The position numbers were made by a program, and so were the translations under genes. 31,234 nucleotides of DNA from Caldisericota bacterium (GTDB lineage: Bacteria > Caldisericota > JANLFM01), in contig JANLFM010000007.1 of the NCBI GenBank assembly GCA_024655865.1, forward strand, positions 1 to 31,234, in the 5' to 3' direction. Positions 20,305 through 28,280 of the stretch are shown here, in pieces. The notes beneath the pieces were generated by a model, which was given only the letters and a program-made list of their open reading frames with translations, had not been told where the DNA came from and did no database searches. Every line of letters starts with the position of its first letter. Within the stretch, counting starts at the first letter, position 1.

Positions 20305-22159
20305 GCGGTTCAATGGCTTTCTTCTGGATTTCCTCCACCATTTTCTCTATAAGTTGGGAAAGAGGCATATCCCCCAGGTCTCCTTTCTTCCTGCGCCTCA
20401 CCGATACGGATCGGGATTCCACTTCCCTGTCTCCTACGATAAGAATGAAGGGGATCTTCTGGGTTTCTGCATCCCGGATCTTGGCGTTCATCTTCTCTGA
20501 ACGCGAGTCCACCTCCGCGCGGATACCCTGAGCTCTCAGGAGGTCACGCACTTCCTGACTATACTCCTGGTGTCGGGAAGCGATGGGGATGACCACGGCC
20601 TGTTGAGGGGCAAGCCAGAGCGGAAAATCCCCAGCATAATGCTCAATTAAAGCGCCAATGAAGCGCTCCAGGGAGCCCAGGATAGCCCTGTGGATCATCA
20701 CCGGCTGGTGTTCCTTGCCATCCTCCCCCATGTAAGTCAGGTTAAATTTCTCCGGGAAGTTGAAGTCCACCTGAACAGTGGGGCCCTGCCACGTTCTTCC
20801 TAAAGCGTCTTTAAGCTTGGTATCGATCTTGGGCCCGTAGAAGACGCCCTCCCCGGGATCCACCCTGAAAGGAATGTCCTTCCTTTCCAGGGCTTCCTTT
20901 AAAGCAGCGGTGGCCCGATCCCAATTTTCCTGGCTGCCGATGAATTTCTCCGGCTGGGTGGAGAGGCGCACGTCAAACTCCTTGAACCCGAAGGTCTCCA
21001 ACATGAAGATCACGAGGTCCAGCACCCCAACAAGTTCATCCAGAAGCTGGTCGGGACGGCAGAAGATGTGTGCGTCGTCCTGGGTAAACCCACGTACTCT
21101 GAGCAGTCCGTGGAGAACGCCAGAGCGCTCGTAGCGATAGACGGTACCCATCTCGAAGAAACGCAAGGGGAGGTCCTTATAAGAGCGGGTCTTGCTGCGA
21201 TAAATGAGCACGTGATAAGGACAATTCATGGGCTTGAGCACGAACTCCTGCTCATCAATGGTAAAGAAATACATGTTCTCCCGATAGAACTCCGTGTGTC
21301 CGGAAACTCGGTAGAGGTCGGACTTGGCAATGTGAGGGGAAGTTACCAGATTGTACCCTCGCCTGAGGTGTTCCTGAACGTCAAAGTCCTCGATGATCCG
21401 GCGCAGAATGGCACCCTTGGGATGCCAGATCACCAGTCCTGCTCCGGAAATGTCCTCGATGGAGAAGATCTCCAGCTCCTTCCCTAAACGCCTGTGGTCC
21501 CTTCTCTGGGCTTCCTCGAGCAGATGCAGGTATTGCTCCAGGCCTTCCTTTGTGGGAAATGCGGTTCCATAAATCCTCTGAAGCATGGGCCGCTTTTCGT
21601 CCCCCCTCCAGTAAGCTCCCGCCACGCTCAAAAGTTTGAAATGCTTTAAATATCCGGTGGAAGGAGCATGAGGACCCCGGCAGAGGTCCACGAATTCCCC
21701 CACTCGATAGAGGGAAACGGTCTCCTCCGGAAGTTCCTGAAGGAGCTCCACTTTGAAATCCTCGTTCAGACGCTGGAAGAGTTCCAGGGCCTCTTCCCTT
21801 TTTATCTCTTCCCTCTGGAAAGGCTGATCCCGGGAGGCGATCTCTTTCATCTTCTCCTCGATGGCAATAAGATCCTCCTGGGTCAAGGGCCGGGGGAGGT
21901 CAAAATCGTAGTAGAAACCCTCTGCGGTCGCCGGGCCAATTCCCAGTTTGGCCTCAGGAAAAATCTCCTTCACAGCCTGAGCCATAAGATGGGAAGTACT
22001 GTGACGCAGTATTTCTAATCCTTCCTCAGTTGATGTCTTAATAAAGGTAACATCCTTTCCGCCCGTGAAGGCGGAAAGATCCATTAAACGGCCATCAACC
22101 TTGAGGGCGATGGCATCCTGAGGAATTGAGCCTTCAGGCTCAGGCTTGAACCGATTCAT
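20297..22159 (-). CDS. thrS: Threonyl-tRNA synthetase
   Basis: A class II synthetase of about 620 residues. It carries the second editing domain (HSTSHLMAQAVKEIFPEAKLG), zinc-site region (KPMNCPYHVLIYRS), the conserved RVRGFTQDDAHIFC, IHRAILGSLERFIGALIEHY, and the C-terminal anticodon-binding domain. I choose the second ATG (22159), six bases after AAGAAGGGG; the ATG at 22165 abuts the ribosome site. A stop codon lies a few codons upstream, so the N-terminus cannot be longer. Compared with usual ThrRS, the N-terminal TGS domain lacks about its first 20-30 residues: only MNRFKPEPEGSIPQDA precedes the IALKVDGRLMDL part. The start overlaps the membrane-protein gene. No T-box leader is seen. Confidence 0.95.
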   Translation of the reverse strand: MNRFKPEPEGSIPQDAIALKVDGRLMDLSAFTGGKDVTFIKTSTEEGLEILRHSTSHLMAQAVKEIFPEAKLGIGPATAEGFYYDFDLPRPLTQEDLIAIEEKMKEIASRDQPFQREEIKREEALELFQRLNEDFKVELLQELPEETVSLYRVGEFVDLCRGPHAPSTGYLKHFKLLSVAGAYWRGDEKRPMLQRIYGTAFPTKEGLEQYLHLLEEAQRRDHRRLGKELEIFSIEDISGAGLVIWHPKGAILRRIIEDFDVQEHLRRGYNLVTSPHIAKSDLYRVSGHTEFYRENMYFFTIDEQEFVLKPMNCPYHVLIYRSKTRSYKDLPLRFFEMGTVYRYERSGVLHGLLRVRGFTQDDAHIFCRPDQLLDELVGVLDLVIFMLETFGFKEFDVRLSTQPEKFIGSQENWDRATAALKEALERKDIPFRVDPGEGVFYGPKIDTKLKDALGRTWQGPTVQVDFNFPEKFNLTYMGEDGKEHQPVMIHRAILGSLERFIGALIEHYAGDFPLWLAPQQAVVIPIASRHQEYSQEVRDLLRAQGIRAEVDSRSEKMNAKIRDAETQKIPFILIVGDREVESRSVSVRRRKKGDLGDMPLSQLIEKMVEEIQKKAIEPLD

Positions 22160-22754
22160 TTTCATCCCCTTCTTTATTTATAATTTTCTGCATTTTAAGC
22201 GCATAGAAGTGATAAAGTAAAGAGACCCCAAAGTACCCCAGGATAATGGAAAATGGCAAAAGGTAGGGGCGCGAAGGAAGAAAGGGCAAGGCTTTCTTCA
22301 CGAGAAAATACTGCGCAGTAAGAAGCTCTAAGATCAAGGAAAACAGAAAGTAAAGAAGGCCACACCAGTATTTTCTCTGGAAAAATCCGTGCGCGGTGAG
22401 GGCCAGAAAGCCCGCAATAAGAATGTAGGCCTGAATCATCCAGAAGCGGTCCAGGATGAAAAATCCTGTAAAGATTGCGGAGGGGGAATTAAAGAGGTAA
22501 AGCCCAAAGCTTTGCCCCAGGCCGAATAGGAAACCTAAAAGGAGCGCTCCCTGAAATACCCTTCTGGGATGGGTTTCCCTTTTTACAACATAAGCCAGGA
22601 AAAAGACAATCAGGCACAAGAAGAAGTAAGCAGGATTCCACCTTCTCAAAATGAGAACGGGTGGAGAAAGTAACCCTCCCAGAAAAGAAAGCGATACCGC
22701 TACTAAAAAAAGCCCCTTCTTAAACCCTATAGAAATGCGATTAGCGCAGGCCAT
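22140..22754 (-). CDS. Six-helix membrane protein of unknown function
   Basis: A 204-residue, strongly hydrophobic protein with six likely membrane helices at about 14-36, 41-57, 66-88, 93-121, 129-152 and 163-185, basic connecting loops (VKRETHPRR, FFQRKYW), and a short charged tail (KMQKIINKEGDENESVQA). I recognise no family or catalytic motif. It lies between lon (43 bases upstream) and thrS (overlapping by 20 bases with the chosen thrS start). The ATG at 22754 sits in the loop of a strong hairpin, and no other good start is near. Translation coupling with thrS is likely, but a functional link cannot be claimed. Confidence 0.75.
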   Translation of the reverse strand: MACANRISIGFKKGLFLVAVSLSFLGGLLSPPVLILRRWNPAYFFLCLIVFFLAYVVKRETHPRRVFQGALLLGFLFGLGQSFGLYLFNSPSAIFTGFFILDRFWMIQAYILIAGFLALTAHGFFQRKYWCGLLYFLFSLILELLTAQYFLVKKALPFLPSRPYLLPFSIILGYFGVSLLYHFYALKMQKIINKEGDENESVQA

Positions 22755-22797: not shown

Positions 22798-25146
22798 TTA
22801 GCTTTTCCTTTTTGCCAGAGCCTCCTTGAGCACTTCATCCATATGATTCACGAGCACAAATTTCATGCTCTTCTTGACGATGGGTGGAAGCTTTTCCAAC
22901 TCCTTTTTATTGGCTTCAGGAAGGATCATAGTTTTTATTCCGGCCCTGTGGGCTGCAAGGACTTTCTCCCTAACTCCACCTATGGGAAGTACTCTTCCCC
23001 TGAGCGTGATCTCCCCGGTCATGGCCACATCGCGCCGTACTGGCTTTCCGGAAAGAGCGGAGACCAGAGCTGCTGCCATGGCGATTCCCGCAGAGGGGCC
23101 TTCCTTGGGAATGGCTCCTGCAGGAACGTGGATGTGGATGTCCATCTGGCGATAGAAGCTCTCATCGATGGAGAGCTCCTTGGCCCGGGAACGAACATAA
23201 GTGATTGCCGCTCTGGCAGCTTCTTTCATCACGTCCCCTAACTGACCTGTCAGGAGGAGCTCCCCTTTGCCCTTGACCAGGGCAACCTCAATGGGCATGA
23301 TGTCCCCACCGTACTCACTCACCCCTACCCCTGTGGCCACTCCTACCTCATCCTGCTTTTCTGCAGATTCGTAGTGGTAGCGAGGGATATCCAGATACTG
23401 GGGAACAGTTTTCGCAGTAACGGTAACGCCAGAGAAATCTTTATTCTCCACTTTAGCTCGAGCTATCTTGCGGCAGATATTGGAAATCTCGCGCTCTAAG
23501 TTGCGCACTCCGGCTTCCCTGGTGTACTCCCGAACGATCCTTAAAATAGCACCTTCGTTGATTTTAAGATCCTCGGGCGAGAGCCCATTGGCCTCAAGCT
23601 GTTTGGGGATTAAGAAACGCTCGGCGATCTTTACCTTTTCCAGCTCCGTATACCCGGGCAAGCCGATGACCTCCATCCTGTCCAGAAGGGCTGGAGGGAC
23701 GGTGTGCAGCACGTTGGCCGTAGTGATGAAGAGCACCTTGGAGAGATCGAAGGGGACTTCGATGTAGTGGTCAGAGAAGGAGTGGTTCTGCTCAGGATCA
23801 AGAGCCTCAAGCAGGGCAGCTGAAGGGTCTCCCCTGAAGTCGGTACCCAATTTGTCGATCTCATCAAGGAGGAAGACCGGGTTCTTGGAACCGGCGTTCT
23901 TCATTCCCTGAATGATTCTCCCGGGAAGAGCGCCCACGTATGTGCGGCGGTGGCCCCGGATTTCCGCTTCATCCCGCACTCCGCCTAAGGACATGCGCAC
24001 GAACTTTCTGCCCATGGCCCGAGCAATGGACTTTGCCAGAGAGGTCTTTCCCACTCCAGGAGGCCCCACGAAGCAAAGGATAGGACTTTTCACCTTCTTG
24101 GAAAGGTGGCGCACAGCGAGGAACTCCAGAATGCGTTCCTTAGGCTCTTTTAAGCCGTAGTGGTCTGCCTCCAGGATTTCCTCAGCTTCCTTTAAGTCCA
24201 GCTTGTCAGGGGTCTCGATACTCCAGGGAAGGTCCAGGAGCCAATCGAGATAGGTGCGCACAACCGTGGATTCTGCCACCATCGGAGGCATCTTCTCCAG
24301 CCGGGAAAGCTCTTCCTCCACCTTTTCCCGAACCTGTGGAGGAGGGTTGACCTTTTCCATCTTGGTGCGGTAGGCCTCGATCTCGGCCAACTTCTCGTCC
24401 TTTTCCCCTAACTCCTGCTGAATGGCCTTCATTTGCTCTCTGAGGAAGTACTCTTTCTGGCTTTTCTCCACTGAGGTCTTGACCCTGTCCTCGAGCTTTT
24501 TGGCCAGCTCCAGGACTTCAAGCTCCTTGGAGAGGACTTCTCCTAGTTTCTCCAGACGCGGGTAGACGTCAGTGATTTCCAGGATTTCCTGCTTTTCCTT
24601 GATGGAAAGGACCATATTAGCCGCAATAAGGTCAGCGAGCTGGTTGGGGTCATCCACGTTCATGATCGCTACCGTGGCCTCGCTGGAAACTCGCTTGGAA
24701 AGACGGGCGTAGTTCTCAAATTGCTCGACGACCATCCTCATCAAGGCTTCCAGGTTTTTCGAGGGCTGCACAACCTCAGGAAGATAATGAAACTTGACCC
24801 GGTAGGAGGGGCTGGTCTGGGTAAATTCGTCGATCTTTACCCGGCAAACTCCTTCTACTACCACGGAGAAGGTGCCATCGGGCATCTTCAGGAGCCTGAG
24901 GATTTCCGCGCCCACTCCTATTTGGAAGACATCATTAGGACCCGGGTCCTCGATGGATTCCTCTTTCTGGGTAACTAATATAATTAATCTGTCCTTCTGG
25001 ACAGCTTCTTCCAGCGATTTGGTGGATTTCTCCCTACCAACGGTCAAGGGAATAATCATATGGGGGAAAACTACTACGTTGCGCAGCGGCAGAAGCGGCG
25101 CTTCGGTCAGGTTTTCCCAAATTGAAAGAGCGTTTTCTCGCGCCAT
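22798..25146 (-). CDS. lon: ATP-dependent Lon protease
   Basis: This 782-residue AAA+ serine protease degrades misfolded and regulatory proteins. It has the N-terminal LON substrate domain (PLLPLRNVVVFPHMIIPLTVGR), a coiled-coil linker, Walker A GPPGVGKT near 358-365, Walker B VFLLDEIDK, and the protease domain with the catalytic pair Ser685 (GPSAG) and Lys728 (GGVREKVLAA), 43 residues apart as in other Lon enzymes. The ATG follows an excellent AGGAGG-like site (GGAGGTGAAACT). A perfect CIRCE element lies 31 bases upstream, so heat-shock control by HrcA is expected. It follows tig-clpP-clpX in one direction. Confidence 0.97.
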   Translation of the reverse strand: MARENALSIWENLTEAPLLPLRNVVVFPHMIIPLTVGREKSTKSLEEAVQKDRLIILVTQKEESIEDPGPNDVFQIGVGAEILRLLKMPDGTFSVVVEGVCRVKIDEFTQTSPSYRVKFHYLPEVVQPSKNLEALMRMVVEQFENYARLSKRVSSEATVAIMNVDDPNQLADLIAANMVLSIKEKQEILEITDVYPRLEKLGEVLSKELEVLELAKKLEDRVKTSVEKSQKEYFLREQMKAIQQELGEKDEKLAEIEAYRTKMEKVNPPPQVREKVEEELSRLEKMPPMVAESTVVRTYLDWLLDLPWSIETPDKLDLKEAEEILEADHYGLKEPKERILEFLAVRHLSKKVKSPILCFVGPPGVGKTSLAKSIARAMGRKFVRMSLGGVRDEAEIRGHRRTYVGALPGRIIQGMKNAGSKNPVFLLDEIDKLGTDFRGDPSAALLEALDPEQNHSFSDHYIEVPFDLSKVLFITTANVLHTVPPALLDRMEVIGLPGYTELEKVKIAERFLIPKQLEANGLSPEDLKINEGAILRIVREYTREAGVRNLEREISNICRKIARAKVENKDFSGVTVTAKTVPQYLDIPRYHYESAEKQDEVGVATGVGVSEYGGDIMPIEVALVKGKGELLLTGQLGDVMKEAARAAITYVRSRAKELSIDESFYRQMDIHIHVPAGAIPKEGPSAGIAMAAALVSALSGKPVRRDVAMTGEITLRGRVLPIGGVREKVLAAHRAGIKTMILPEANKKELEKLPPIVKKSMKFVLVNHMDEVLKEALAKRKS

Positions 25147-25176
25147 AGTTTCACCTCCATTTTCTTTTGCTATATT

Positions 25177-25203
25177 TTAGCACTCTTTAGTCAAGAGTGC
25201 TAA
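25177..25203. promoter_or_regulatory. CIRCE element (HrcA operator) before lon
   Basis: TTAGCACTC (25177-25185), nine bases, and GAGTGCTAA (25195-25203) match the CIRCE consensus perfectly. HrcA is known to bind this sequence and repress heat-shock genes, usually groESL and dnaK. Here it lies between clpX and lon and overlaps the clpX stop codon at 25200-25202. On the minus strand the spacer contains TTGACT, which may serve as a -35 box, but no well-placed -10 is obvious. Confidence 0.92.
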
Positions 25204-26450
25204 CGAAGGAGGGCTTCCTTCTTTTCCTCTTTCCTGGCCGATTTTTCCAAAATCGGCCTCCCGCCATTCAAAATTACTTCTTCGGTGATCAAACACCTGG
25301 TTATACCTTTCATGGATGGTACCTCAAACATTAAATCGAGCATTAAACTTTCCAGAACAGATCTCAATCCGCGCGCCCCTATCCCTAAGCCCAGTGCCTT
25401 TCTGGCGATGGTTCTAAGTACTCCCTCAGTAAAGATCAGTTCTATTCCATCTAATGCCATGAGCTTCTGGTATTGCCTGATAATGGCGTTCCCGGGCTCG
25501 ACGAGAATCCTCACCAGGTCATCCTCAGAAAGGGGTTCGAATTCCACAATCAGGGGGAACCGCCCCACCAGCTCGGGAATCATCCCGAACTTTAAAAGGT
25601 CCTCGGGCATAGCCCCCTTTCCTGCTACTTCTGCTTTGCTTTCTTTTGCGACGAAACCGATGGATCCTTTTTCCTTTTTCTTTATTATTTTATCAAGCCC
25701 CTCGAAGGAACCGCCAGCGATGAAAAGGACATTGGTAGTGTCCATTTGAATGAAATCCTGGTAGGGATGCTTTCTTCCTCCTTGAGGGGGGACATTCATT
25801 ACTGCTCCCTCTAACATTTTGAGCAGGGCCTGCTGCACTCCCTCTCCGGAGACGTCCCTGGTGATCGAGGGGTTCTCCGATTTGCGCCCAATTTTATCTA
25901 TCTCATCGATGTACACGATCCCTTTTTCCGCTCTCTTGACATCGAAATCCGCGGCCTGCAGCAACCTTAAGAGGACGTTCTCCACATCCTCACCCACGTA
26001 GCCTGCTTCCGTAAGGGAAGTAGCGTCGGCAAGGGCAAATGGGACTTTGAGGAATTTAGCCAGAGTCTGAACTAAAAGAGTCTTCCCTACTCCGGTAGGA
26101 CCTATAAACAGAAGGTTGCTCTTTTGAATCTCCACATCCTGAGAAGAGGGAGAGGAGATCCTCTTGTAATGGTTATAGACGGCTACAGAGAGGGCCTTCT
26201 TGGCCTTTTCCTGCCCGATCACGTAGTCGTCTAAAGCTTTTTTGATCTCCATCGGCGTGGGAAACCGGGAAAGCTCAAGGGAAAAACTGTCCGCGCGGTT
26301 CATAGCGTTGTGGAACAGGGTAACACACTCCTCGCAAATAAAGGCGTTATAACCAGCAAACAATTTGCCGGTTCCCGTAGCGGGTCTGCCGCAGAAGGAA
26401 CAGTATCGCTCTTTCCCCGCGGGAGAAGAGAAGGGTCTTAAGTCGGACAT
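25200..26450 (-). CDS. clpX: ATP-dependent Clp protease ATP-binding subunit ClpX
   Basis: The AAA+ unfoldase that feeds tagged or specific proteins into ClpP. 416 residues. The N-terminal C4 zinc-binding domain has Cys17, Cys20, Cys39 and Cys42. Walker A GPTGVGKT lies near 116-123, followed by [12 protein letters not shown] and the sensor region of the AAA+ module. The ClpP-binding loop motif should be the IGF in [10 protein letters not shown]. The start is ATG at 26450, 12 bases after the clpP stop, with a weak AGAGAA ribosome site. The stop lies inside the CIRCE element. Confidence 0.97.
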
Positions 26451-26462
26451 TTAATTCTCTGT

Positions 26463-27053
26463 TTACTCTCTTTTATAGAATACGTAATCGATTAACCCAT
26501 ACTCCTTGGCTTCTTCCGCGGACATGTAAAAATTGCGCTCCGTATCCTTCTCGATTTTCTCCAGAGGCTGTCCGGTGTGCTTAGCCAGGATCTTGTTCAA
26601 GATATTCTTGGTTTCCAGGATCTCCCGGGCCTCGATCTCGATGTCCTTGGCAGCCCCTGAAATCCCCTGCCCGGTCAAGAGAGGCTGATGGATCAGGATA
26701 CGGGCATGGGGAAGCGCCATCCTCTTTCCTTTTGTTCCCGCAGCCAGAATCAGAGCGGCAATGCTTGCTCCCAGGCCAAGACAAATGGTGTTAATCGGGG
26801 ATTTCAGGTATTGCATGGTGTCGTAAATGGCCAAACCAGAGGAAACCAGGCCACCAGGGCTGTTGACGTAAAGGTAGATGTCCTTGGCGGGGTCTTCTGC
26901 TTCCAGGAAGAGAAGCTGGGCGATGATGGAGTTTGCCAGATCATCCATTACCGGCCCTCCCAGGAAGATAATACGGTCCTTAAGCAAGCGAGAATAGATG
27001 TCATAGGCTCGCTCGCCTCGGGGCGTTTGTTCAATAACGTATGGGATAACCAC
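26463..27053 (-). CDS. clpP: ATP-dependent Clp protease proteolytic subunit ClpP
   Basis: A 196-residue serine peptidase that forms the 14-mer chamber for ClpX. The catalytic Ser97 (GLGASIA), His122 (ILIHQP) and Asp170 ([10 protein letters not shown]) are all present. The Ser motif GASIA differs slightly from the common AASM form. ATG at 27053 follows the tig stop by 3 bases; clpX follows after 12 bases. The order tig-clpP-clpX-lon is conserved in many bacteria. Confidence 0.97.
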
Positions 27054-27056
27054 TCT

Positions 27057-28280
27057 TTACCTCCCTTCCTCTGTCTCCTTTTGGGAAAGAATCGTAGATA
27101 CCTGCCAGTCGTGGAAGAGTTCGTCCAGGGCTTTTCTTCTTCTCAAGCTGGCGTAGATACTTTCCGGATCAGCGTCCTCGCGGTTCCGCAAGGCCTCCCG
27201 GAGCTCGGACTCCTCAACCTGGATGTCCCTCTCATCAGCCACCTGCCAGAGCACGATTTGCTCCTTGAGGGTCTGAACAGCCTGATTTCTGGCCACCGTT
27301 TCCCTCCACTCTTCCTCGGTAAGACCGATCCTGCCCAGGAAGTCATCCAGCATTCGTCCGGTGCTCCTCAAGTAGTCCTTGAAGGATTCTACGTAATTGG
27401 CCAGCGCTTTCTCCCGGGCGTGACTTGAGAATTCCAGAGGAATAAGTTCTATGTACTTCCTGAGGAACTCTTCCTTGAGTTGCTTCTGGTACTCATTTTC
27501 CATGTAATTTTTCAGATCGGTTCGGACCTTTTCCCTAAGCTCCGCTAGATTTGAGACCTGAAAGTTCTGTGCGAACTCGTCATTTTCTGGGGGAAGCTCT
27601 TTTTGTTTGACCTCGACTACCTGAACCTCTATATCAGCCTTTTCACCCTTGAGATCCACGGAAATGGTTTTCGTCTCCCCAGCCTGAGCCCCTTGCAGGT
27701 TTTGGTCAAACTCGGGCAGAAAGGACTCCTTGCCCAATTCCAGCATCTCGGTAGCCCAGGGCTCATCGCCCAAGCGCCATCTAACCACCACCACGTCACC
27801 GATCTCTGCCGGCCCTTCCTTGGGGATCAGGGCGGCATAGCTTTCCCGGAGGCGGAAAATGGTCTTTTCCACATCAGCATCGGTGACTACAGGAGGAGGA
27901 AGATCAAGTTTCACCTGTTCCACGGGAGGAAGCTCGAATTCTGGCCAGGGATCTACGGTCATGCGGAATATGAAGGGCATGCCCTCCTCGAATTGCTCCA
28001 CTTTTATTTGGGGGGAGAAAAGAGGAGTGATGTTCTCCTTTTCATAAACCTCCTCGATCGATTCCTCAAGGAGCGCGGAGAGGGCCTCCTCCTTGATCTT
28101 TTCTTTGCCTAAAAAGGCCTTTACTACGTTGGTGGGAGCCCTTCCCTTGCGGAAACCAGGAATAACGGCATCTTGACCTAAACGCGAAGTCGCCATGTTC
28201 ATGGCATTATCAACCTTCTCCGCAGGCACTGTCACTCTGAATTCAACCTGGTTTTCCAGGTCTTTTCTCTCAGTTTGCAA
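27057..28280 (-). CDS. tig: Trigger factor, ribosome-associated chaperone
   Basis: A 407-residue peptidyl-prolyl isomerase/chaperone that binds nascent chains at the ribosomal exit tunnel. It contains the ribosome-binding N-domain with the signature GFRKGRAP (about 42-49), a central FKBP-like domain (about 155-240, GPAEIGDVVVV) and a long helical C-terminal chaperone domain. The start is TTG at 28280, after GGAGAAAATAAA. There is no obvious terminator between tRNA-Leu and this gene, so its transcript may start at the tRNA-Leu promoter. Confidence 0.95.
   Translation of the reverse strand: MQTERKDLENQVEFRVTVPAEKVDNAMNMATSRLGQDAVIPGFRKGRAPTNVVKAFLGKEKIKEEALSALLEESIEEVYEKENITPLFSPQIKVEQFEEGMPFIFRMTVDPWPEFELPPVEQVKLDLPPPVVTDADVEKTIFRLRESYAALIPKEGPAEIGDVVVVRWRLGDEPWATEMLELGKESFLPEFDQNLQGAQAGETKTISVDLKGEKADIEVQVVEVKQKELPPENDEFAQNFQVSNLAELREKVRTDLKNYMENEYQKQLKEEFLRKYIELIPLEFSSHAREKALANYVESFKDYLRSTGRMLDDFLGRIGLTEEEWRETVARNQAVQTLKEQIVLWQVADERDIQVEESELREALRNREDADPESIYASLRRRKALDELFHDWQVSTILSQKETEEGR

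Follow-up and report, generated by a model that had tools for sequence, protein, structure and literature searches.

CIRCE usually precedes groESL or dnaK, as a first-pass annotation of the locus described here had pointed out, although its occurrence before lon has already been published for Mollicutes (PMC7737663, PMC4245973, PMC5138195). The classical HrcA regulon is made up of groESL and hrcA-grpE-dnaK (PMC545781). In Mycoplasma pneumoniae, whose genome contains hrcA, lon has a CIRCE element and its transcription is also linked to the promoter of the trigger factor gene tig (PMC7737663). CIRCE is likewise found before lon in M. gallisepticum, where lon is up-regulated by heat and where the role of CIRCE in the heat induction itself has been questioned (PMC4245973), and in Spiroplasma melliferum (PMC5138195).

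The DNA analysed here (the window, a stretch of 31,234 nucleotides) belongs to an uncultured Caldisericota bacterium and shares the combination of CIRCE and lon with M. pneumoniae, although the Mollicutes are only distantly related to it. In M. pneumoniae there is presumably neither clpP nor clpX between tig and lon. As in M. gallisepticum and S. melliferum, lon stands in the HrcA regulon beside chaperone genes (PMC4245973, PMC5138195), the partner targets being clpB, dnaK and dnaJ in those two species and groESL, grpE-dnaK and an ABC exporter in the Caldisericota genome. Both the operator consensus and the core targets are like those of the classical regulon (PMC545781), from which this genome differs in the addition of lon and in having hrcA apart from grpE-dnaK and devoid of a CIRCE. 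With CIRCE before lon in this Caldisericota family, a known arrangement is extended to a new lineage.

The CIRCE operator and the lon neighbourhood

When the pattern TTAGCACTC-N9-GAGTGCTAA was searched, both 9-base arms were found to be exact at positions 25177-25203 (minus strand), where the operator reads TTAGCACTC-TTGACTAAA-GAGTGCTAA on the lon strand. Dinucleotide shuffles of the window gave no CIRCE even with three mismatches (expected number 0.00), and the perfect CIRCE before lon reported in the first-pass annotation is upheld by these results. The operator is separated from the lon ATG by 30 bases, the arm end lying 31 bases upstream of the A. On its other side, four of the 27 operator bases, all in the upstream arm, overlap clpX and correspond to its stop codon TAG (25202-25200) and the final base of the codon before it. 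Both the distance of 31 bases and the overlap with the clpX stop had been correctly described, and the range originally annotated, 25147-25203, comprises the operator together with the spacer to lon.

The genes on the minus strand are ordered tig (trigger factor, 27057-28280), clpP (26463-27053), clpX (25200-26450; PRK05342, 584 bits) and lon, with gaps of 3, 12 and 53 bases. The presumed target, lon (22798-25146), encodes an ATP-dependent protease La of 782 aa (TIGR00763, 981 bits). Its leader (25147-25176, minus strand), which was also compared in the relatives, has a strong ribosome-binding site, GGAGGTGA. Directly after lon, and in the same position in four relatives, is the gene for a small membrane protein of 204 aa (22140-22754, minus strand) with a weak, below cut-off similarity to Bax1-I; it may be co-transcribed with lon and be a partner in the Lon operon. 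An Rfam search of the window returned two tRNAs only.

HrcA, further CIRCE sites and their conservation

The genome scanned, of 1.82 Mb and 96% complete, contains a single hrcA gene (PF01628, 163.7 bits, C11:56137-56796). CtsR is the regulator of Clp-type protease genes in Bacillota, and a search of the genome with its profile PF05848 gave no match. Four perfect CIRCE sites were found genome-wide, the reversed-pattern control giving none, and their targets are groESL (L001), grpE-dnaK (L003), lon and an ABC-type ATPase-permease pair (L002). Since perfect sites also precede groESL, grpE-dnaK and the ABC-type pair, the lon site is part of an ordinary HrcA regulon to which lon has been added. Upstream of hrcA itself no CIRCE could be recognised in this genome (best match with 7 mismatches), whereas in three relatives (G002, G003 and G004) a degenerate CIRCE with three mismatches is placed 3-4 bases before the hrcA start codon. 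The hrcA gene (L005, G000:C11) is flanked by hemW-like and rsmE-like genes and is not close to grpE-dnaK.

The ABC exporter operon, encoding an ATPase and a membrane permease, is an unusual HrcA target and has its CIRCE 39 bases upstream (L002:1501-1527; G000:C22:121995-122021). The link between CIRCE and this exporter is conserved within the genus, because the orthologue in the sister genome G001 (89% identical) also has both arms perfect, in this case with a 7-base spacer (L183:1439-1463; G001:C22:229471-229495). In addition, a -35-like hexamer, TTGACA or TTGACT, is often present in the CIRCE spacers before groES, lon and the ABC operon (L001, L002, L004, L170, L177).

The family was sampled by five genomes, the one studied here (G000) and four relatives (G001-G004), the latter being matched by identical operator sequences to records L036, L086, L037 and L038, which were deposited as Caldisericota or Coprothermobacterota MAGs. 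In all five a CIRCE with 0-1 mismatch is found 30-37 bases before lon. The 9-base spacers of these lon operators (TTGACTAAA, TAACCAAAA, TTGACAATA, GTGACCAAA and GTGACCAAT) differ from each other, as do the flanks, and because both have diverged while the arms were kept, the comparison indicates what looks like selection on the CIRCE arms. Even with up to four mismatches allowed, a CIRCE was absent both from 25 lon loci belonging to other families of the phylum (L121-L145) and from 76 lon loci of more remote origin. Moreover, by coordinate comparison, none of the CIRCE matches listed for the phylum adjoins lon outside the family. The first-pass annotation had placed lon under the control of HrcA and CIRCE and had suggested looking for hrcA, for other CIRCE sites and for conservation of the site in relatives; with hrcA present, three further perfect sites, including those before groESL and grpE-dnaK, and a lon site kept in five of five family genomes, this proposal appears sound.

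The CIRCE sites inspected in the rest of the phylum have groES, grpE-like genes and an Hsp20-like gene as targets. A variant CIRCE whose two arms are altered symmetrically, TTAGCAGTC-N9-GACTGCTAA, precedes an Hsp20-like gene (L191:1747-1773; G027:C14:1747-1773) in a genome from another family of the phylum, and similar sites occur in G033, G053 and G050. This variant may reflect a shifted HrcA preference.

Although clpX next to lon is common elsewhere in the phylum, the gene before the CIRCE-lon unit is clpP, not clpX, in all four relatives of G000, and ClpX was not found when their genomes were searched (E <= 1e-40). All four have kept clpP, and one of them has a 95%-identical Lon; at least one further Clp-type ATPase is encoded in each. 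In the sister genome 165 bases, with no clpX, extend from the clpP stop to CIRCE-lon, and no convincing match to a clpX remnant was obtained between clpP and CIRCE in L036, L037 and L038. The ClpX of G000 forms a lone deep branch of weakly supported placement in the ClpX tree, which for this reason does not tell a kept clpX from a regained one.

Proposed control of lon and alternative readings

The operator coincides with a promoter-like sequence (25174-25203, minus strand), which is composed of TTAGCA as the -35-like hexamer, an 18-base spacer ending in TGC, and TAAAAT as the -10-like hexamer. With nine of 12 consensus positions matched and a TG ahead of the -10-like hexamer (expectation of 0.4 sites per region), the match is modest, partly inherent to the CIRCE sequence, and one to the consensus only. 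From it we infer that the promoter is positioned on the operator; its use would place the transcript start near 25167. Control of HrcA by GroE titration is an established model (Mogk 1997, cited in PMC7737663). In such a scheme HrcA, activated by free GroE, would bind CIRCE and block the overlapping promoter by excluding RNA polymerase, and would probably also block read-through from tig-clpP-clpX. Since the lon strand showed no terminator in the clpX-lon interval, HrcA may indeed obstruct transcripts that would otherwise continue into lon. With GroE engaged as a result of heat or misfolded protein, HrcA would lose its activity and lon would be derepressed together with groESL and grpE-dnaK.

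It is thus very probable that 25177-25203 is a genuine HrcA operator, by which HrcA represses lon and from which GroE titration releases lon along with groESL and grpE-dnaK. The perfect site, the presence of hrcA, the failure to find CtsR, the chaperone sites, the conservation in the family, the coincident promoter-like sequence and the Mollicute precedents all argue for it, while the modest promoter match, the hrcA of G000, which has no CIRCE, unlike that of three relatives, and the doubt raised about CIRCE in the heat induction of M. gallisepticum argue against it. Repression of lon by HrcA appears well supported because the lon CIRCE is kept across the family and is absent from the other lon loci compared, and Lon is probably induced together with the chaperones. 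It is from the sequence that we infer HrcA binding, lon repression and heat induction. The suggestion that the operator splits the cluster into separately regulated tig-clpP-clpX and lon parts can be retained to the extent that an operator-promoter of its own is plausible for lon.

Alternatively, lon might have no promoter of its own and be read from the tig-clpP-clpX transcript, HrcA at CIRCE serving mainly as a roadblock. The short gaps from tig to lon, the missing terminator, the lack of any promoter match in the clpX 3' end upstream of CIRCE and the description of M. pneumoniae lon as having the trigger factor promoter plus CIRCE (PMC7737663) are all consistent with this, but the promoter-like sequence on the operator and the sister genome that keeps the site at 165 bases from the clpP stop, with no clpX, make it rather unlikely. 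The palindrome could also be thought to act as an RNA hairpin in a read-through transcript, influencing lon translation or mRNA stability instead of binding HrcA. Although RNA folding of the segment is good (z -3.5), this follows from the palindrome itself, and the ribosome-binding site in the read-through transcript is no more hidden than with shuffled flanks. Moreover it is the arm sequences, and not pairing alone, that are conserved, and they agree with the HrcA consensus before groES and grpE, so that a hairpin function is very improbable. That the clpX end sequesters the lon ribosome-binding site, as one fold suggested, was rejected on the basis of ensemble accessibility compared with shuffled flanks.

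As to its origin, the operator had been thought to have evolved inside coding sequence, which would make it a local novelty of G000 at the clpX coding end, and the four operator bases overlapped by the clpX end are in agreement with this. Nevertheless the stop codon accounts for three of these four bases, and in four relatives without clpX the operator is found at almost the same distance before lon, which contradicts such an origin and leaves it hardly credible. Since these relatives have the operator without clpX, it goes with lon, and only in G000 does clpX abut it.

HrcA control of lon may have a wider meaning in this family, in which four of the five genomes are without ClpX and a CtsR search of one genome gave no match. 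We tentatively suggest, as a possibility rather than an expectation, that HrcA captured lon, and in one genus also the ABC exporter, so that folding, Lon proteolysis and export would answer to a single GroE-titrated repressor. This would be a case outside the Mollicutes, extending through the whole family, of probable control of Lon by the class I heat-shock repressor. As CIRCE-lon is found in one family only within the phylum, it offers an example of regulon growth by the gain of one operator, and coupled with the sister genomes' loss of ClpX it provides a simple and testable story of rewired protein quality control.
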